NCBI GenBank assembly: GCA_028386065.3
Contig: JAKUCV010004428.1
Coordinates: 59,991 to 123,990 of the forward strand
Direction of reading: 5' to 3'
DNA length: 64,000 nt
Source: Turnera subulata
Lineage: Eukaryota > Streptophyta > Magnoliopsida > Malpighiales > Passifloraceae
Shown: one piece after another, positions 11,491 through 64,000 of the stretch
Numbering within the stretch: position 1 is the stretch's first letter
Layout of the letters: every line of letters begins with the position of its first letter
Position numbers and translations under genes: made by a program
The notes under the pieces: model-generated
Database searches by the model: none
Seen by the model: the letters and a program-made list of their open reading frames with translations, nothing else
What the model was told of the DNA's origin: nothing

Positions 11491-12136
11491 ACAAGTAGAA
11501 TAAATACATTAACCGTACCTCACTTTTGGAATTCCTTCCACACGGAATGTACGTTGAGTTGGAGCCTTTATTTTCAATCTATACTTTGTATAGAGTCCAA
11601 ATAAAAGCATCAAATTGATTGGAAAAGATAGACATGAACTTGGAAGTGCTGTGGTATTTAAGATCATATTGTAATACTGACAAATGGTAACTTTCCATGG
11701 TAATATTGTCCGCGTTTACGCGTTCCTAAAACGTTTCTTATGATTTTTCATTATCACCGGCCGTTATTATTTCCTCAAGTACAAATTTTTTTCTTAATTA
11801 ATTACTTAGAGTACAAGGCCTTTTGAATCTTGGTATTCGTGGAGTACTCCACTCTTTCACACGAAATTATATACCCATCTATATTATTTTCTCACTTTTA
11901 AAACTTTAAACACACAGAATTTATTAATCATTTCCAGAGAGGGGAATTTTCTCCCGAACCGGGCAATCATTGGAGGTTCTCCAAGCAAAAATCAGCAAAT
12001 TATACTAGCATACATCATATAATGCTGCCAATCCAAGTGGGAGAGAAAGCCCGCAATGCCATCATTCATTTCTATGAGGCTTAATTCTCAAAATCAAAAA
12101 AGAAAAAACTAGCTATATGTGGCTTATAAAAAAAAA
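11491..12136. other. Upstream flank of SPH, no gene seen
   Basis: AT-rich sequence without a recognisable gene or repeat. Open stretches are short and without similarity to any family I know. Confidence 0.55.
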
Positions 12137-19007: not shown

Positions 19008-22000
19008 TGTGAGGACCCGGGCCAAAAAAATATTGACCTCCTCACCTTATTCTTACACTTCTTCTTAACCAACAATTCAACAATCAAAGTAGTCGCCACC
19101 CTGATTTTATTTCTTGGAAAAATCAAGGAAAAAAAATCTTTAGCATCAATTCTTCCTTCATAGGTAACAACTTAAGGGACCGATCATAATGAACCAGAGA
19201 TTTTTGGATTCGTGGATTCGCCACAGGTGGGAAGGTGTTAGGCACCCACCAATGTTGGGGCGAAATCGTATGCAATAATTGAACCTTTTATGCATGCCTT
19301 GTGAGCGTGTGCATAGTGTGGAAACAAATTACATCGACGAAATCAATAACTGAAGTTGAAAAGAAAGGTGGGAGACAAAAGATTTGGCTTGCATCTCATT
19401 GGCAACTTGAGACTACCTACGTACCCGAGAGACCAGAGTCAAAGCCACATCGTTCTAACAGTTCATCAACACAAATCACATCATCATATCAGCAACAAAC
19501 ATCATAGCATCATCATATCATAGAATCAACAACAATCAATAAGATTCAAGATAAAAAAAAAAAGGGGCTTGTGCACTTACCTGGAATTCTAGATAGAATT
19601 TGTCAGTCAATTTCAATGGGCTTTTAAATAAAGAAACCGACCGATTCTGTCATGCACCCGCCTAAACGCGACCGGCCAGGTACCGTGTGCACCCACATCG
19701 TGCCACAAGGCACCCCAAGGCCTATAACTGTCTCTATAGAAGCTTGTTGCCTCTGCCTCGCGGGTTACCAACCAAAGACATGTGCAGCGTAAACGGAAGC
19801 AAAACTATCAAATGCAAAGGCAACTCAAATACCAAAATGTATCAAAACTCAATATCCACTAAATGTTATAGAATTTGCTACAAGGGGCACTAACTCTTAC
19901 TACACGAGGACATAACTTCTTTTAAATATAAATACAACAAATTAAATAAACCGACTCGGCTATACCCATCTACCCACACTGCCCGTGCTCTCATCCTCGC
20001 ACCTGAAAGACATGGGGAGGAAATGGGGGGTGAGTATAAAACTCAGCAAGTAAACAGGCAATGCAAGAAAGCAACTACAACTGCACACAGAGCTCGGCAT
20101 GAGCAACACACAGTCATGCAGCACACAATAATCACAACACCGGGCACTCACGCCACGGAACAATCCATTGTGTCCCCGACACGTACTGGTCTCACTCCCC
20201 CCCGACCAGCTAGGGTATGATGTGCCCCAAGGCAGCCTATGTAGTTTGGTAGCATATACAGGTGTTACTCCTTAGCCCACAGCCCCACGTACGAGGCATA
20301 ACCGAGAAGTCACGGGAAGTGCGCGTGACTTGCTACCACAACTCACACAGCTCCTGGCGGACATCGTGTCACACCTGTAATAGACCAAGCGGGCAATATC
20401 CTCCGCAAGGTTCAACAACCTGTACAAGGCACCCAGTGCCAATATCTCGTGGCACACAAGTTTACTACAAGTGCCCACCATCTCATGGTACGTGCAAGCC
20501 TCGCAAGCACTACCTCGTGCACCCAGTGCACCTCAACCAACTGGCCAGTGGTACCACAATCACAAGCACAATCACAACAAGGCAATCACATGCCAATCAT
20601 TAGCACAACAAGTGCAATGCAACCAAGCCAACAAAGGCAGCAAGTATGCCACAAGCATACAACACAATCAACATGCACCCACAACTCACAATGCACCGCA
20701 ATTATGCACAATTGACCAACAAAAGCCGATTAGCCATGATTAGGCCTCAATAGATAATTAAACAAAAATAGCCAGCACTGGTCAGCAAGTAAATCACACA
20801 CATAATGACACACAATCAGCATGCATAATGGCCTTCCGCCCAACAAAGGGTGCACTAGCAATCACTACCCGCATAAACCCATTTACTTACCAACACCTAG
20901 GCATCCCTAGGCCAATTCCTCTTCTTTGGAACCATTGGGTTTCTTGGATCATATTCCCTGTAAACACCTACAAATATGCATCTCAATTAATTCACAGCAA
21001 CCATAGCTTATGAAATACAAACAAACCCCACAACACTTAGCTTATCTCAAATCGGGCAGAAACTACCCTGCACCACCAGCAACTTCAACACGAAATCTAG
21101 AGCCCTTAACGGCTGAACCAGGTTCGGGCTTCAACATAAGAGTTGTAGCCCTATGTCTCAGCTTTCCAGAACACCAAAGAACAACCTAATCCGAGCTCTG
21201 TAGCCTCAGATATGCCTTTAATACCAACACTGGGTCAAGCAGCATGACTGCTACTGGACAGTCGCAGCACAGTCAATTTGGAGAGTCCGTAACTCTCTCG
21301 TTTCTACTCCAAAACCTACATAACCGGTTCCATATGAAAGCTACAGATGTTAGCTAATCATAGGCTTTGGTTTGACTCAATTCCAACCGGTAGTTTGGCC
21401 GGAATCCTCCTTTTAGTGGCCAGGGGTCTGTCTGGCCGAGAGCAGAACCCCTAGGCTCACTTTCCTCCTTTCCCCTCTTTTCTCTCCTTCTCTCCCTCTC
21501 TCTATCCTTAGCCACGAATTTGGTCTGATCAAAATGGGAGAGAGAAGCCTGGTTTCACCCCTTAAGTGATGGTAAGTAGGTGACTAAGCTCCTACTTGCC
21601 ACACTTGCCAACTTGGTGCCACTTGCACCAAGTTGCTCTCCACCTCATGCTTACTCTCCACCTCATGCTTACTCTCCTCCTCTCAACCTACTAGCTTGCA
21701 CCAAACACCTTCAGCAGCTTATTCCCAATCCACATGTCGAACCCTGATTGGTCGGTTTGGCAAATTACGCATTTACCCTTATCGTACCCAATTGTGCACC
21801 GACGGGCACACCAATGCCCGGTTGTGCACCATTTCGCACCAAATCGAGCTAACCAACAATCCCCTTGGCCAATTGTGCCTCTAATGCACTAATTATACCT
21901 AATTAATCATTACCAACATAACTCGACCTTTATCAACCGATTATATAGGTCAAGTACTCAGTAACCCTAAACAGGCCAACCGTGCCATCGGGTCACCGCG

Positions 22001-23146
22001 AACCCATTTGTGCACACTAGGCCAAGCCTAAGTGCACCATTATCCTTAATCCGACACTCGCACATGTTACCGAGCTTAGACCCATACCAACATAACCTAC
22101 ACGAGCATCCTCAAAGGAAGAGTAACACCCGACTCCATTCACTTAAGTATCCCTCTAGGCACCTAGGTGTACCTGGGGTATCACAGATTCAGCTTCTGGT
22201 GCCAACAGCAAAGTTGTATATCTCCCTCTTATCTTTCCAAAGAGTCCAAGATCCCAACAATACGATGTCTAGAAAGGAAAATAGGAATTAATTACCGTGA
22301 TTGCACGCATCAGGGACCTCCACTCGGGGTTTCCATGTTTTTTTGACTTCCTGAAGGCCTTTGATTACTTCCTTCTCTTGATCTCCTCTTTCTGGACTCT
22401 TCTTGGTGCTCCTCTCCATGTGGGGGGGGGGGGGGGGGTTTCTATTTTTGGTGCTCAGGGCCTCAAGGGTCGTCCTTTTAATCCTATGAATGAGATTGAA
22501 ACCCAAAATCTGATGGCTGAGAGTTAGAATAAAAAAACATAAAAATAAGAAAAATTGCCAAAATATGTCCGCATGTCTGCCAGGACCTAGCAGTCGTCGC
22601 GACATATCCGCCAGGACCTGTTCACTGTAATTGTTCTTCTCTTTTTTGGCCTTGATTCTCATTAAATCCGACTTAACTTGATTCCCATGCTCATCATTAA
22701 TGCTCTCTGCCAAGGAAACACTCCTAACTTGTAGGCTATTTCCTCATTTTTCCTCTTTATCATTAACACACCAAATTTTGCCTGTTTTTTGCATTTTCTT
22801 ATCATAAAGACACAAAGAACAATAGAGGAAAAATTAACTCTGATTTCCATGAATTCAGAGCTAAATTAAGCTGCAAGTAATGTGTTTTCATGGGCCAATA
22901 TTGTTAGAGGTCCATATGTTATTAATCCAGACTCTAAACCTATTCTTAGCCCAAATTAAATCATCTCAATAATACTGGGTGAAAACAAACTAAAAGTCCA
23001 AAATAATAAAATAAACATATTCTACTAAATTAAACTCTCAACATATTTCTAGCATAAAGATTAAATCATTTCATTAACCTATGGATTAAAACACATAAAA
23101 AGTCTAATCTAATAAAATACCAGTGGGCTAAATTTGGATGTTCATA
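19008..23146 (+). mobile_element. Solo LTR split by a second solo LTR
   Basis: Starts TGTGAGGACCCGGGCC and ends TTGGATGTTCATA. Without the insertion 19648-22190 it is about 1.6 kb and aligns with the solo LTR at 54681-56293, sharing GAAGGTGTTAGGCA, ACCTACGTAC and, near the end, the CTCTGATTT...TCAGAGCTAAAT inverted pair. The flanking bases GGGAA (19003-19007) and GGGAG (23147-23151) fit a decayed 5-bp duplication. A 17-base G run lies at 22422-22438. Confidence 0.8.
19648..22185 (+). mobile_element. Solo LTR (probably Gypsy) nested in the solo LTR above
   Basis: Starts TGTCATGCACCC, ends GGGGTATCACA, and is flanked by a perfect duplication GATTC (19643-19647 and 22186-22190). At about 20030 it has GGGGTGAGTATAAAACTCAGC, a phrase typical of long plant Gypsy LTRs, and the CA-rich stretch that usually follows. 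The many short frames at 20020-20740 are translations of this CA-rich DNA, not genes. No internal region is present, which points to LTR-LTR recombination. Confidence 0.88.
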
Positions 23147-26196: not shown

Positions 26197-26794
26197 ATGC
26201 TCCTCCAGAAGTTTTTCAAGAAGCAAAAGTGGAAAAATTCCATAGAACAAACTATGCATTGGTCCACAAGGCAATAGATTCGGGTCTCCAAATATGTGCT
26301 TTGGAGTTTGGTTCATGGGGCCATGACCTAGGTTTTTGTGCTTTTCTCTACCCAATCCTAGGCGATTTCTAAAGAGGCAGTGGCGATCATATATATAATA
26401 TTGTACAATGAAGATTAGATACATATTATTAAACCTCATTTGAAATATCTTGTGGATCTCCATGTGATAATTTTTGTCAATTTATAAAAATTTTATTTTA
26501 TATTATTTATTGTGCCTTGATATTATTATATTTTTTAATCAATTATTATTCAAGTTGCATTTTTTAGATAGTACAATTTTGGTAACTAATCTTCTAAAGA
26601 ACTAATTTTGTCTATATAATCATATATTAGAAGACAAATTTTGTCTAATATCTAAAAGGATTATATTTGTTTAATCTAAAAGGTGTTAGGAACAAAATTT
26701 ATCCACTATATATACTATAGAGGAGGACAGTATTTTCTCCATTAGAATATGCTTTAGGTGACTAACTTCAAATTAGTCCCGTTAGGCTACGGTG
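26197..26794. other. AT-rich intergenic sequence, nothing recognised
   Basis: Strongly AT-rich. A 93-codon minus-strand frame at 26182-26463 overlaps the LTR end and resembles no known protein. Confidence 0.5.
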
Positions 26795-26802
26795 ACAAGA
26801 CT

Positions 26803-27565
26803 CTTTTTTTTTTTTATCAACAACGAAATGTGTTTCCATTAAAAGATAATGAGTACAAGACACCACAGCCACACACAACAAGTGAAGTAAAGAAAACCTA
26901 CATCTATTACAATAGCTTAAAAAACCAACATATACTGGCTGATATTCCTACAACAATGAAGGATGATGAAGACTTGTGACTCTTCCCATAGAACAATATA
27001 CTGCAGCTCCACAAGCCTGAAGTGCTTTCCCTAGATTGCTTCAAACATAAGCCCAAAAATATTTGATTTTTCAAAGAAAATTACAACAGAAAGAAGGTAA
27101 CCTCCACAACCTCCTGAATATGACCATAGTATTCCCTACCAATCAAACTTTGAAGCACAATGAAAGAAACGGGAACAAAGATTTAAGCCCTTTTCCGGAT
27201 ATCTCTTCCATGAAATACCAGCTTACCTGCAAAAATCAGAGAACAAAGATTGCAAACATAGCCGGGATCTGGGAGAGAAGTTAACATGACATCATTTTGT
27301 GTGGATCTTTGAGAAGAAATTCACACAAAAGTCGTCCAAAATGAGTACTCCATCAACGGAGAGGAAGCCATCAATGGAGAGGAAGACCTCATTGAGAGGT
27401 AGAAGACCAAATTCAGACCAAGATCTGAATTGGTAGACTTATTAATCCGATTAAAACAGAAAAAAGGAACTAAAATAGTAAAAGCGAAAGCGGAAGATGG
27501 AGAGGTTGCCCGAAGGCAGCCCCCAGGGAGAACCAAGGCAGCTGTTAGGGTTTTTTTTAGTAAAC
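26803..27565 (-). mobile_element. Short LINE-derived insertion with target-site duplication
   Basis: A T run (26804-26815), which is an A tail on the minus strand preceded by GTTGAT, marks the 3' end. The copy of ACAAGACT on the left (26795-26802) is repeated on the right (27566-27573). On the minus strand the element begins CTAAAAAAAACCCTAACAGC, as many plant LINE leaders do, and has a short open frame (27569-27321) without RT. It is an internally deleted LINE or a LINE-mobilised short element. Confidence 0.65.
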
Positions 27566-53273: not shown

Positions 53274-54333
53274 TGTTAGTAATATGCCCAAAAGCCAATC
53301 ATGGATGATTATTTGTAGTTGTGTATATGCATTAAGGTTATTCCAATAAGTATCGTTTATGAGATAAACGCTTGCACATACTTATAACCCAAGTATATAT
53401 ATATTTGATATGTATATTCTTAAATGTCCCTAGTCGGTTATTATTACGGATGGGTTGTAATAATAAGTTAAGACTAGCGTATGTTGAGAATTGCATATGT
53501 GATATGAATTCTACATACGGGNNNNNNNNNNNNNNNNNNNNNNNNNNNNNNNNNNNNNNNNNNNNNNNNNNNNNNNNNNNNNNNNNNNNNNNNNNNNNNN
53601 NNNNNNNNNNNNNNNNNNNNNNNNNNNNNNNNNNNNNNNNNNNNNNNNNNNNNNNNNNNNNNNNNNNNNNNNNNNNNNNNNNNNNNNNNNNNNNNNNNNN
53701 NNNNNNNNNNNNNNNNNNNNNNNNNNNNNNNNNNNNNNNNNNNNNNNNNNNNNNNNNNNNNNNNNNNNNNNNNNNNNNNNNNNNNNNNNNNNNNNNNNNN
53801 NNNNNNNNNNNNNNNNNNNNNNNNNNNNNNNNNNNNNNNNNNNNNNNNNNNNNNNNNNNNNNNNNNNNNNNNNNNNNNNNNNNNNNNNNNNNNNNNNNNN
53901 NNNNGAAAAATTCAGAGTATTGAGCCTTGAGAAGTGTTCTTGAGAGCTTGAGAAAACACACACTTACCCCTTTCTTTGTGAAAGAAAAAGAACACCAAAA
54001 ACACCACAAACACAAGTTCCCGGTTTTACTCTTGCTAGCACATCAGTCCGGGGAGCTCGTTCTTGGATTCGTGTGACGATTCCGGGAAGGTCACGGTTCG
54101 TGTGGATACCATAGAGGAGCAGGTCTTCTTCTTGCTCTAACTGATTTGTTTCAGCCTTCGTCTTGGTCTAGATGATTCGTTCCAGCAGTTGGGTGAAAGA
54201 CCTCAACCGAACAAGGTATGAAATTTTGTTATACGGTTTATATGCTTCACATGTGGTTCTTGGCTAAGTTTCCTTTGCTTCCGCTGCATCTTTTGCTTGT
54301 ATATGATTGTCATATAGCCTAGGGAAACTTACA
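53274..54333 (+). repeat. Solo LTR, same family as 60841-62402, with assembly gap
   Basis: Starts TGTTAGTAATATGCCC, ends GGGAAACTTACA, and is flanked by a perfect duplication TAGTT (53269-53273 and 54334-54338). About 380 bases inside are unknown. Confidence 0.92.
53522..53904. other. Assembly gap (383 N)
   Basis: Unknown bases inside the solo LTR. Aligning both sides with the copy at 60841 suggests roughly 0.9 kb is missing, more than the gap length. Confidence 0.95.
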
Positions 54334-59469: not shown

Positions 59470-60641
59470 GTAATGTCGCCAAATCTTAAAGCAAAGATCA
59501 CTACGGCCATCTCTAGATCATGTGTCGGATAGTTCTTCTCATGTGGCCACAACTGTTTCAAAGCATAAGCAATCACTCGGCCCTCTTGCATCAGAACTGC
59601 TCCCAAATCAAGACCTGAAGCGTCACAAAACAGCACGTACTCCACTCCTGGCTTAGGTACTGTCAAAATCGGCGCGGATATCAACTTCTTTTTTAGTTCG
59701 TCAAAACTCTTCTGGCAGGCTTCACTCCAAACAAAGGCTTGATCTTTCCTCAACAGCTTAGTCATAGGACTGGCTATCAAGGAAAAACCCTCGATGAACC
59801 TCCGGTAATATCCTGCAAGGCCAAGAAAACTTCTGACTTCAGGTACTGTCTTGGGTGGCTCCCACTCTAGAACAACTTTTACTTTGGCAGGGTCGACTTT
59901 AATCCCATCCCCAGATACAACATGTCTGAGGAATGCAACCTCTTCAAGCCAGAACTCGCATTTGCTGAACTTGGCATATAACTGTTTCTCTAGCAGTCTC
60001 TGAAGTACTACCCTCAGGTGCTCTTCATGTTCTTCCCTACTCTTGGAGTATATCAGGATGTCGTCGATGAAGACTACCACAAACTTTTCCAAGAACTCGT
60101 TCAAGACCAAGTGCATCAAGCATATAAAAACTGCAGGTGCATTGGTCAAGCCAAAGGGTACAACTGTGAACTCAAAGTGACTATACCGAGTGTGGAAGGC
60201 TGTCTTCGGTATATCCTTCTCTGCATTCTTGACCTGATGATATCCAGACCTAAGATCAATCTTGGAAAACACGGTAGCTCCCTGTAACTGATCAAAGAGG
60301 TCATCAATCCTGGGAAGCGGGTACTTGTTCTTCACTGTCACTTTGTTCAGCTGCTGGTAGTCCATACACATTCGCAGACTGCCATCTTTCTTCTTAACAA
60401 ACAGCACTGGTGATCCCCAAGGTGATGTACTAGGTCTGATGAAACCTTTCTCTAGTAGCTCATCTAACTGTTTCTTCAACTCCTGAAGTTCTGTTGGTGC
60501 CATCCGGTATGGTGCCATCGAGATAGATATCACTCCCGGCATCAGATCGATGGTGTACTCAACTTCCCTGTTAGGTGGCAATCCTGGTAGATCCTTCGGA
60601 AACACATCTGGAAACTCTCTCACAACTGTGATGTCCCCCAA
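59412..60641 (-). pseudogene. Gypsy reverse transcriptase and RNase H N-terminal part
   Basis: Open for 409 codons: [79 protein letters not shown] (catalytic FIDD), [17 protein letters not shown], then RNase H with [13 protein letters not shown]. Upstream, across a stop at about 60652, is the protease end (YSAMVNCRTKEVLL), which is cut by the LTR at 60841. The RT itself is the best-preserved retroelement frame in the window, but the polyprotein as a whole is dead. Confidence 0.93.
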
Positions 60642-60840
60642 AACTGGTGTCTAAACTTCTTCGCCCTTGACGTGAGACAACAAAGCATCCGAACCATGCG
60701 GCTTCATTCCGAAACCCTGATTAGCAGAGATACTACATGTAGCAGTAGCTCTCCCAATACCTGTCAACAAAACCTGACGCCTACCATCGGAAGTCAGCAG
60801 CACTTCCTTGGTTCGACAGTTTACCATAGCACTGTACCTG

Positions 60841-62402
60841 TGTTAGTAATATGCCCAAAAGCCAATCTATGGATGATTGTATTCATGTATACATTTTTTG
60901 AGGTTATACCTATATATATGATTATGAGATAATCGCTTGCACATATATATAACCCTAGTGTATATGTATTTGATATGTATATTCTTAAAAGTCCCTAGTC
61001 GTTTATTATTATGGTTGGGTTGTAATAATAAAATAAGACTAGCGTATGTTGAGGATTGTATGACTTACGAATTCTACATACGGGTACAAGATGGGGATCT
61101 TGTTGACCGGACCGACCCACATAAGAACGCTACATGGAACGTTTTATGTATGTCGATAGCGTTTTCTTATAGATGTGATTGTCCTCCGACCTGAGATCGT
61201 CAAGGTATCCAACATATGAATCATGTACCTTGATATTATTCCTAGTCATCCGTAACTGGGTGGACATAAGGGTAATCATCGGGTATATGACGAGTATGTA
61301 GTGGGTTTTGATTGATCAAGAGGGGATTCGTCCGACCTATATAACGGGTATATTATCGAGTAGGTTTCTTGATAGAGTTGAACTGTTAAAATGCATGGCC
61401 ATGCTCGGATAGGGTGATATGATGATATCACGGGTATCCGTTTTATACAGTTAACTCGAGGATCAAGAAACCGAGATTAGACATATACGAGATTGACGTT
61501 TCCATGTCTCGGTCTAATCTTGATAATGGGACGATAGGACGATGACATATTCCGAGGCATAGTGAATCAGTTCTGATCTTGTCGTTCGGGTAGCAATGAT
61601 GTGTTGCTAGACGCCGCTCTTTGTTTATGATTGTAAAATGAGATTTTACAATCATTGCCGGACGTTACAAGTGCCTACAGGGTCACACACATAGAACCGA
61701 TGATTCGAGCAGATGGTTGAACCGTGGTTGGACCATGGTTGGACCGGGTGTGGTTGGACCGTGGTTGGACCGTGGTTTGACCAGGGTCGTTTTTGGGATG
61801 GTTTGATTCACTAAGTATCAGATTAGTGGAGTCTTTAATGCAGCCATGTGATGATTATTCCCACTAAGTGTTAGTGGAAACATGTTGGCTATGTTGGCCA
61901 CTTTGTTTTGCCTTTATGAGTTGGCACTCACATGGTTGTGTATGGGCATTATGGATGTGTGGGGATAGGCATTGTGAGCTGATGACTCTAGCTCATTCTC
62001 ACCCCTTCACCACGTTTTTGGCAGCCCCAAAAACTCTCTGAAAACACCTCCTTTGAGTTCTTCTTCTTTGTGAAAGAAGCAAGAGCATTAGCATTCCAAA
62101 ACACCCCAAACACACACACTAGCTCCTACCTTGTTGCTAGCACATCAAGTGGGAGTGCTCGAGGCTTGATTCGTGTGACGACTCGAAGCCGATCACGGTT
62201 CGTGTGGATACCGTAGAGGAGCAGGTCTTCTTCTTGCTCTTACTGATTCGGTTTCCGGCTTAGGTGAAAGATCCTAACACTACAAGTAAGTAAAATTGTT
62301 ATACGGTTTACTAGCTTCACATGTGTTCTTGGTTGTTTCCCTTGTCTTCCGCTGCATATATCCGCTTTTATATGAATGTCATATAGCCTAGGGAAACTTA
62401 CA
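60841..62402 (+). repeat. 5' LTR of an LTR retrotransposon continuing past the window
   Basis: Starts TGTTAGTAATATGCCC and ends GGGAAACTTACA, directly followed by a primer-binding site, so this is a 5' LTR in plus orientation, 1562 bp. It was inserted in the protease region of the Gypsy element. Probably Copia by LTR style; no pol is in the window to confirm. Confidence 0.88.
61714..61785. repeat. GGTTGGACCGT minisatellite in the LTR
   Basis: Six near copies of an 11-bp unit (GGTTGAACCGT, GGTTGGACCAT, GGTTGGACCGG and so on). The unit GGTT.GACC is itself nearly palindromic. Confidence 0.85.
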
Positions 62403-62403
62403 G

Positions 62404-62416
62404 TGGTAGCGGAGCC
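62404..62416 (+). promoter_or_regulatory. Primer-binding site
   Basis: TGGTAGCGGAGCC, one base after the LTR; it differs from the usual Met site TGGTATCAGAGCC at two positions. Confidence 0.7.
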
Positions 62417-62684
62417 TTCTTGTGAAGCTCTAAACCGTATATATGATGCATATGCGATATGATCATCTAAGTATGTGTAGGATTCATTTGTGTATATGAT
62501 ATGCTAGATGAATTGTTTTGTGCATATTGATGTCGTGTTTGTCAAAAGAGTTTTGAAAACAAGTTGTTGATTGATATGAGATGTCAATCAATAAGTTCTA
62601 GGCAGTAGGTCGAAGAGTTCGACTAAGAAAAACCGAGTGTCGGTTTGCGTTTGCAACGATTGTCGTTCATGAGCTGCAAGGCCA

Positions 62685-63501
62685 GGACATCGATGTTCAT
62701 CAGATGGACATCGATGTCCACATGATATTTGCCTTGGCCGAGACCACTGGACATCGATGTTCATCTCATGAACATCGATGTTCTGTGTAGTCTGGCCTTG
62801 GCAGAGAACATTGAACATCGATGTTCATGAGATGAACATCGATGTCCTATGTAGGTTGGCCTTGGCAGATTCACATGAACATCGATGTTCAAGGGTTGAA
62901 CATCGATGTCCAAGCCTTGTGAGAATTGTTTGAGATTCCAGAGACCAAATAACATCGATGTTCACCTTAGGACATCGATGTCCTTGTGTTTGAGAGTCTA
63001 AAACATCGATGTTTAGAGGATAGACATCGATGTTAAAATGCTACTGCCAAGTTTTTGGACCTTCGGAACTTGCCAACATCGATGTCCAAGAGTTGAACAT
63101 CGATGTTCATGAGTTCCAGAGGCCCATGAACCTTTAGAACTTGCCAACATCGATGTCCAAGAGTTGAACATCGATGTTATTGAGCTCTGCCAAATAGTTT
63201 GGACTTCCAGAGCCTCAAGGACATCGATGTTCATGTCAGGACATCGATGTCCTAGAATACCCACATCGATGTTGTGGAGACCAGTAACTTCAACAGCGAA
63301 TTAAAGGTAGATGGAGGCCTAACTGGTGTCTGGCCTGAACAGCAAAGTTGTAGCTCTACTTCTTAGCTTTCCAGGGACACTAAGTTTGTACAAATCCGAG
63401 CTCTACAGCTCTGGATATGGCCAAAATACTAAGTGCTGCCAATTGTTGGCGAGAATCAGATTCTCATAGACATCGATGTTCATTTATGGACATCGATGTT
63501 C
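62685..63501. repeat. Array of 21 perfect ACATCGATGT palindromes, mostly paired
   Basis: Perfect copies start at 62687/62708, 62751/62772, 62815/62836, 62879/62900, 62952/62972, 63003/63024, 63076/63097, 63147/63168, 63221/63241, 63263 (single) and 63470/63490; a degenerate ACATCAATGT is at 63532. Partners lie 20-21 bp apart; the first four pairs repeat every 64 bp, later ones every 51-74 bp. Most copies extend to 14 bp as G(G/A)ACATCGATGT(T/C)C. The spacers in seven pairs are themselves inverted (AT-NNN-AT, AA-NNN-TT or ATTTAT). No long frame crosses the array. Confidence 0.95.
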
Positions 63502-64000
63502 ACTTGCATTTTTGTTTTCCAAATTTGCTTAACATCAATGTATGATTAAATGATTATATGCATGAGATGTATGAACATATGTTGATGAAATATTAAGTTC
63601 TTAGTTGCCTTCCATGATGAGTACTAATCATTGCTTAGATCAACACTAGGTAGGTTTTGCCCTAGCAAGGTGCCTATGTTTGTCCTAGCAAGGTTCGAGA
63701 GGATAATTGTAATATCCCGATTGCTTGTTGTGGGTGTGGACTTAACTAGGTTACCTTAATAGGATTAAGAACCTAGAGGCAAGGGTTGAGAAATGTCTAT
63801 AAGATAGACTTGGACAAGGTGTTGTTCACTCAATTATCCAAGAGTTGCATAGAGATGTAATTGACAAGAGTTGTCTACCTAAATAGCTATGATGTAGGTG
63901 ATCAGCCCTAGCTGACTTATGTTGTAGTGAAATGTGGATCTTGGCCTACTTGTTATCATTTTATTGATTCTTAGTAGGAGCATCATTTAATTAAATTCCT
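63502..64000 (+). other. Leader of the LTR element, no gag reached
   Basis: No coding sequence is recognisable. TGTAATATCCCGA at 63708 resembles the start of some Gypsy LTRs and could mark another nested element, but its other end is not in the window. Confidence 0.4.

Follow-up and report, generated by a model that had tools for sequence, protein, structure and literature searches.

A helically phased palindrome array in Turnera subulata retrotransposons: a candidate platform for a dimeric DNA-binding protein

The 64-kb stretch of Turnera subulata DNA analysed here (the window) raises the question why the leader of a retrotransposon should contain one and the same 10-bp palindrome, ACATCGATGT, in 21 perfect copies, and whether these copies are likely to act as DNA sites, as folded RNA or not at all. 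They lie within 813 bp (62687–63499) and nowhere else in the 64 kb, as compared with 0.04 copies expected from shuffles. The array is arranged as follows:

62687–62717, plus strand: palindrome pair 1 (copies starting at 62687 and 62708)
62751–62781, plus strand: palindrome pair 2
62815–62845, plus strand: palindrome pair 3
62879–62909, plus strand: palindrome pair 4
62952–62981, plus strand: palindrome pair 5
63003–63033, plus strand: palindrome pair 6
63076–63106, plus strand: palindrome pair 7
63147–63177, plus strand: palindrome pair 8
63221–63272, plus strand: palindrome triple (63221, 63241, 63263)
63470–63499, plus strand: palindrome pair 10 (63470, 63490)
63532–63541, plus strand: 22nd copy, ACATCAATGT, with one change

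Counting confirms what the initial annotation had reported, namely 21 perfect palindromes, a partner spacing of 20–21 bp and a 64-bp recurrence of the first four pairs, whose starts are exactly 64 bp apart. Its description as ten pairs plus one single is correct in the number of copies but not in the single, because the apparent single palindrome at 63263 is the third member of a triple spaced by 20+22 bp. Start-to-start spacing is 20–22 bp inside the groups and 43 (three times), 52, 31, 52, 50, 53 and 207 bp between them, and the 22nd copy follows 42 bp past the last perfect one. Unit duplications of 64 and 71 bp are visible in the array. The 21 copies display ten invariant columns, outside of which information drops, so that the site has sharp edges. 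The claim that spacers diverge while palindromes stay perfect is borne out in the first three 64-bp units, where 0 of 20 palindrome columns versus 22 of 44 spacer columns are variable (p = 3e-5). Helical register in the window alone is modest (p 0.0008–0.007 by choice of null).

Some further properties of this region may be recorded here. Between 62685 and 63500 the spacers are very poor in CpG (5 versus 30.6 expected), with 21 of 21 palindromes keeping their central CpG; CpG in the LTR is not depleted (58 versus 67 expected). The block after the 19th palindrome (63329–63432) is 69% like 21124–21227, and part of it is 86% like 22204–22239, outside the element. A coding reading of the array was rejected, as the minus-strand open reading frame (ORF) at 63013–63300 has neither a Pfam match nor a homologue and the mixed 20/21-bp spacing breaks the frame. 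A known RNA family was rejected as well: eight matches to microRNA precursors were all under the gathering score, and a long hairpin may produce such matches.

The element that carries the array is defined by the following features:

60841–62402, plus strand: 5' LTR of the carrier (TGTTAGTAAT...AAACTTACA), with ends as in the solo LTR of the window
62404–62416, plus strand: primer-binding-site-like (PBS-like) word TGGTAGCGGAGCC, the same or nearly the same word being found after the LTRs in families A, B, C and E (see below)
53274–54333, plus strand: solo LTR of the same family, with the target-site duplication TAGTT on both sides; 53522–53904 reads N

The order of LTR, PBS-like word at 62404 and array confirms the proposed location in a retrotransposon leader. 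The carrier is an LTR retrotransposon cut by the contig end at the end of the window, and its genes are supplied by related copies. LTR sequence like that of the carrier is also present in loci L087, L088, L089, L091, L094, L095, L096 and L098. The element itself is embedded in what remains of a Ty3/gypsy pol on the minus strand (RVT_1, RNase H, integrase zinc domain). Plausible 5' splice sites, CTACAA/GTAAGT and ACAAG/GTATGA, are located near the LTR ends (window 62286; solo LTR 53274–54333); if such a site were used, the PBS and the array would fall in a leader intron. The LTR further contains a hairpin with a 13-bp stem (61627–61655, ATGATTGTAAAAT-GAG-ATTTTACAATCAT) and a second short tandem repeat (61714–61787) of about six 11-bp units, TGGTTGGACCG, near one helical turn in length.

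The array is no local oddity of the window and occurs genome-wide. Pairs of ACATCGATGT were counted in the 518.7-Mb Turnera subulata assembly, with spacing measured start to start and the pattern read backwards as control. They are found at 11,499 places with 20-bp spacing (10-base gap; control 5), at 26,222 places with 21-bp spacing (11-base gap; control 19) and at 27,391 places with 51–55-bp spacing (gaps 41–45; control 9). The corresponding numbers are 46 for 24–28 bp (gaps 14–18, all five summed), 880 for 35–39 bp (gaps 25–29) and 1,044 for 57–61 bp (gaps 47–51). Among the matches listed, a 21+18+21 bp variant makes up most of the 35–39 bp places and many of the 57–61 bp places, and some further 57–61 bp places are composed of 20 or 21 plus 40 bp. 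The 18-bp step inside this variant is the main exception to helical register (L087 7019–7079; G000 C23, C55, C68, C80 and others). The perfect palindrome is absent from five 2-kb stretches taken at fixed places, a sample too small to be informative.

Searches in other DNA gave the following. A pattern search of viral contigs returned 0 matches, and blastn of window positions 60841–64000 versus 78 loci gave no match at 1e-5. Prokaryotic assemblies (28 stretches, L001–L028; e.g. L004, L010, L014, L021) contain tandem ACATCGATGT arrays with drifting spacers, mostly with a 21-bp period (L010 has 13 copies, L004 has 11); in four assemblies such arrays are present on three or more contigs, the word having been preselected by the search pattern. 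Two leads were abandoned, namely pairs of GAATCGATTC, found in three contigs with one pair each, and the leader piece AAAGTTGTAGCTCTA, found in 47 contigs of which none resembles the leader.

Register was analysed for 311 perfect sites in 18 fetched 10-kb stretches and window positions 60001–64000, all loci with arrays having been chosen for holding 20- or 21-bp pairs. Gaps between neighbouring sites cluster at 20–22, 30–33, 42–44, 50–55, 62–66 and 72–75 bp, with few in between. Periods of 7–16 bp were scanned over gaps of 25–119 bp after spacers at least 70% alike had been dropped, which left 97 of 142 gaps. The best period is 10.56 bp with a mean cosine of 0.725, as compared with a maximum of 0.27 among 500 null sets. 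By group, the best period is 10.52 bp in family A, 10.62 bp in family B and 10.56 bp in the rest (which includes L087, with A and C arrays). The later-fetched arrays L101–L106 gave 10.58 bp from 30 gaps, with 0 of 100,000 random sets as good. Altogether, the 24 stretches and the window contain 373 sites; of their 333 neighbour gaps below 120 bp, 324 lie within a quarter turn of multiples of 10.56 bp, where half would be expected. Taking all site pairs, the in-phase share is 0.96 at 15–70 bp, then 0.87 and 0.65, and 0.59 at 200–260 bp; because it fades with distance, the register is local. Array spacers are akin across clusters, so that gap lengths are partly inherited and families do not represent independent tests, an effect which the 70% filter reduces and does not remove; in a spacer length-difference test with cheap gaps, nearly everything passed the cut.

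Constraint was estimated from eight diverged pairs of copies (each sequence used once) and seven recent pairs, which we take to be LTR mates or nearly identical copies (the window and L091 are among them). In either set a palindrome site was counted if one partner or both had it perfect. Diverged copies differ at 11 of 664 palindrome sites versus 351 of 1683 spacer sites (p = 5e-41), which is some 12-fold, the eight pairs being not fully independent since mates (e.g. window and L091) enter different pairs. Recent copies differ at 12 of 740 palindrome sites versus 55 of 2337 spacer sites (p = 0.31). All-pairs tallies agree (palindromes 1.7, 1.0 and 0.55% versus spacers 25, 19 and 19%), although here sequences are reused, only query-perfect sites are counted and alignments are possibly anchored on the palindromes. 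Because diverged copies spare the palindromes while recent copies decay alike, maintenance would operate in the copying lineage only: the comparison indicates that sites are kept while elements propagate and decay about neutrally after insertion. The initial annotation was ready to regard the array as a local expansion without function if other copies lacked it or if palindromes mutated like spacers, and the comparison of copies did not bear this out.

Around the arrays the palindrome is perfect in 311 copies, has one mismatch in 53 and two in 7, as compared with 0, 0 and 5 for the reversed control word; the central CpG is lost in 21 of the 53 one-mismatch copies. At the edges, A is found at position -1 in 89% of cases with little information farther out, which extends the site to a 12-bp palindrome, (A)ACATCGATGT(T).

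Judged by their flanks, 29 arrays form six clusters (10, 9, 6, 2, 1 and 1). In family A, to which the window belongs, the array lies in the leader after the PBS-like site and is followed by copia gag, integrase and RVT_2 in L098 and L088; three plus-strand ORFs of at least 120 amino acids between array and 3' LTR of L088 represent gag, integrase and RT pieces. Another family A copy (L087 2494–3068) has its array about 3 bp past the LTR match and seems to lack the PBS and the beginning of the leader. In family B the array occupies the 3' end of the LTR, with some 44 bp left to the PBS in four loci and some 23 bp in L085, and with a TATA-like box upstream of the array in the three LTRs examined; locus L093 contains copia gag and RVT_2. 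The 1703-bp LTR of family C (L092) holds 21 palindromes in its middle (302–1061), and eight more in the interior of L092 form a cluster of their own. Family D consists of L097 and L099, and the array of L099, which adjoins a Transposase_32 ORF, precedes a TATA-like box by about 85 bp. In family E (L100), with LTRs 94% alike, the array lies after the PBS and downstream of a TATA-like box, and the element carries a gypsy-type gag (PF03732), its other three ORFs having no Pfam match. All TATA-like boxes mentioned here are pattern matches, and the pattern is missing from the C LTR, from A_L098 and from the surroundings of the L097 array. The PBS word TGGTAGC.GAG/A occurs within 1.5 kb of the array in loci of A, B, C and E; it was not found within this distance in L087, L090, L097, L098 or six short stretches, L098 having a one-letter variant. 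RT identity among A, B and C is 31–51% (C being the ORF that adjoins the L087 array, assigned by position). Arrays are carried by no fewer than three Copia lineages, by an element whose gag is of the gypsy type and by a locus with Transposase_32.

In 57 of 92 comparisons, spacers of different clusters are more alike than in 30 controls with shuffled spacers; the weaker of these cases are uncertain since shuffling destroys local composition and ancestral half-sites. The best matches across clusters are 126/167 (D versus L092 interior) and 74/96 (D versus E), and the array spacers of A resemble those of C when one of the two is inverted (99/133). The simplest reading would be an exchange of array modules between families; common descent may instead account for the likeness.

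We consider it likely that the array serves as a platform on which a homodimeric protein binds DNA in a sequence-specific manner; this protein would most likely be a host activator (the array being an enhancer) or an anti-silencing anchor. The core site, (A)ACATCGATGT(T), would be occupied by a homodimer. Dimers would be paired two helical turns apart and pairs would follow each other at three to seven turns, mostly four or five, which would place the dimers locally on one face of the DNA and may yield a single cooperative complex. A homodimer binding on one face would explain core symmetry, sharp edges, pairing and register. Elements losing sites would propagate less, so that palindromes would be kept through retrotransposition while spacers drift, and a copy once inserted would decay neutrally. 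Since the site is common to unrelated families, we favour a host factor, although the element itself may encode it. An enhancer or anti-silencing anchor would be suited because arrays occur on either side of TATA-like boxes and in either orientation. The candidate host factor would raise transcription or counter silencing; its binding, its host origin and either of these effects are what we infer from the sequences. The initial annotation had named a dimeric DNA-binding protein as the first half of its reading, which gains support from helix-quantised spacing genome-wide and from the conservation of palindromes, not spacers, between copies.

More tentatively, and with somewhat less than an even chance, unrelated retrotransposon lineages may have multiplied the site of one protein, most likely a host factor, into tens of thousands of pairs in helical phase, passing array modules on among themselves. 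If true, the transposons of this genome would share an activator or anti-silencer commons in the form of a cis module spreading between superfamilies, and the bound complex would need neighbouring dimers on the same DNA face. The arrays, which display clear signs of transposon selection for a spaced array, may be regarded as a heavily replicated natural record of the spacing demanded by a DNA-bound complex. They predict a plant DNA-binding protein obtainable with a 12-bp probe, and offer a direct test of the sharing or exchange of regulatory modules among unrelated transposon families.

Instead of an enhancer, the array may be an insulator or boundary platform similar to the one that Su(Hw) sites form in the Drosophila gypsy element, in its 5' untranslated region; no plant counterpart is known to us. 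The leader position in A and E and the many clustered sites of one protein would be in line with this idea (gypsy as described in the accessible part of PMC2374998). We nevertheless regard it as unlikely, because the arrays of other families are located within the LTR or ahead of a TATA-like box, which is awkward for an insulator between enhancer and promoter.

The second half of the initial reading was a series of RNA hairpins, in which the pairs would fold in the genomic RNA for packaging, dimerisation (palindromic kissing loops) or translation control. On thermodynamic folding, every window pair does fold (-15 to -25 kcal/mol) and 601 nt of the array fold at -309 versus a mean of -169 in 20 shuffles (z = -26), and the arrays of A, B and E are downstream of an LTR or a TATA-like box and so probably transcribed. 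Coordinated change in the spacers, also claimed initially, is weak in the window (p 0.075–0.086; 10 pairs, 4 inner positions). In 129 distinct inner spacers, complementarity is mildly raised at positions 3 and 4, where Watson-Crick pairs are in excess (p 0.015 and 0.017) but not at positions 1 and 2; with G-U allowed, the excess holds for position 4 only (p 0.004). On the other hand, the window arms are invariant. Among the pairs of all loci, three have changes in both arms and none of these is compensated, while single-arm changes break pairing in 32 of 46 cases and leave G-U in 14. Spacing between pairs, that is, between sites which are not partners, is helical too, a property that hairpins do not need, and the C array lies in the LTR middle and the D array upstream of a TATA-like box. 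All this renders a hairpin series improbable. Retroviral leaders hold palindromic dimer signals. Such dimerisation and packaging palindromes lie between PBS and gag, as do the A and E arrays, whereas the B and C arrays are in the LTR, and the compensatory changes that go with a pairing constraint in retroviral-type RNA palindromes are not seen here. BARE2, according to the part of the source available, is said to keep dimerisation and packaging signals (PMC3735527). Since inner complementarity is slightly raised and the RNA fold is strong, the array may have a secondary RNA role beside that of a protein platform.

The array might also give rise to hairpin small RNAs through which the host silences the elements, a role reported for Sirevirus palindromes in maize (in the accessible portion of the summary in PMC10760457). 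The strong fold and the loss of the central CpG in many one-mismatch copies, expected of methylated DNA, would agree with this, yet a silencing target should be lost, not conserved, in propagation and the helical spacing is left unexplained, which makes such a function quite improbable; small-RNA production may be a cost of the array. A neutral minisatellite, i.e. functionless tandem duplication in retrotransposon non-coding DNA like the satellite-seeding Ogre subrepeats, appears highly improbable in spite of the unit duplications and of retrotransposon subrepeats described as becoming satellites (PMC7004042, as far as accessible), given that palindromes change so much less than spacers between diverged, not recent, copies, that helical quantisation extends over 97 dissimilar spacers and that the same word occurs in families with unrelated flanks.

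Among known systems, and judged from literature searches alone, an array such as the one proposed here to bind a dimeric protein appears to be undescribed; for the 10-mer ACATCGATGT, the titles and abstract openings examined revealed no link to retrotransposons. The initial statement that no described element has this design is too strong, as the repeated palindromes of Sireviruses are a relative in kind. These repeated motifs (RMs) are short palindromes present in 8–32 copies per element of plant Ty1/copia and have been proposed to be cis-regulatory (Bousios et al., 2010; PMC2829016, this and the following as far as the text is accessible). The Tnd-1 RM is ACAATCGATTGT in eight copies, the other 12 of 13 RMs have a CGG-CCG core, and RMs lie in the LTR (upper half) and the linker, mostly before env (PMC2829016). 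The array resembles them as a high-copy palindrome in Ty1/copia (21 copies; copia gag and RVT_2 in A loci L088 and L098 and B locus L093, the window copy being cut before gag), by sharing the ATCGAT core with Tnd-1 and, in the C array of L092, by starting 302 bp into the LTR (302–1061 of 1703). It differs from most RMs as described there by having ATCGAT in place of a CGG-CCG core. The Sirevirus junction CA/ATTGG/TATCAGAGC is replaced by CA/GTGGTAGCGGAGCC in A and CA/ATTGGTAGCGGAGC in B and C, the latter two sharing CA/ATTGG with Sireviruses. As to place, the window's family has its array in the leader and others have it in the LTR 3' end and outside Copia. The accessible part of that description mentions neither two-turn pairing nor helical register for RMs, and one identical word common to several families of one genome goes beyond it. 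The Sirevirus RM appears to be the closest described kind, from which the window's family departs in core, junction and place; by analogy, both may work alike.

Other systems share single aspects, each being compared here from the available portion of its source. The gypsy insulator comprises 12 Su(Hw) sites within 340 bp of the 5' untranslated region (PMC2374998), similar to the clustered sites of our array in the leader (62687–63499, after LTR and PBS-like site); unlike the latter, the Su(Hw) site is non-palindromic, and its TGCATA core is absent from the conserved 10-mer. The targets of VANDAL VANC proteins are tandem motifs in fast-evolving non-coding repeats, where the bound sequence-specific protein removes silencing (PMC5735166, PMC10398659). 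Our arrays likewise are tandem short motifs in non-coding transposon DNA, but VANC is element-encoded and its motifs differ between VANDAL groups, whereas here one motif is found in several families and no such gene was recognised among the three L088 ORFs described above. SIRC cassettes of Arabidopsis consist of direct repeats of 10–29 bp, some palindromic, with diverse spacers and enrichment in mobile elements (PMC10342631); they have 2–8 copies, and the portion available mentions neither helical register nor a single shared word. Finally, the heat-responsive LTR site of ONSEN recruits the host factor HSFA2 (PMC3907296). Recruitment of a host factor by a plant retrotransposon is what we propose here as well, while the ONSEN site is a different one, located in the LTR only and in one family, as far as described there.
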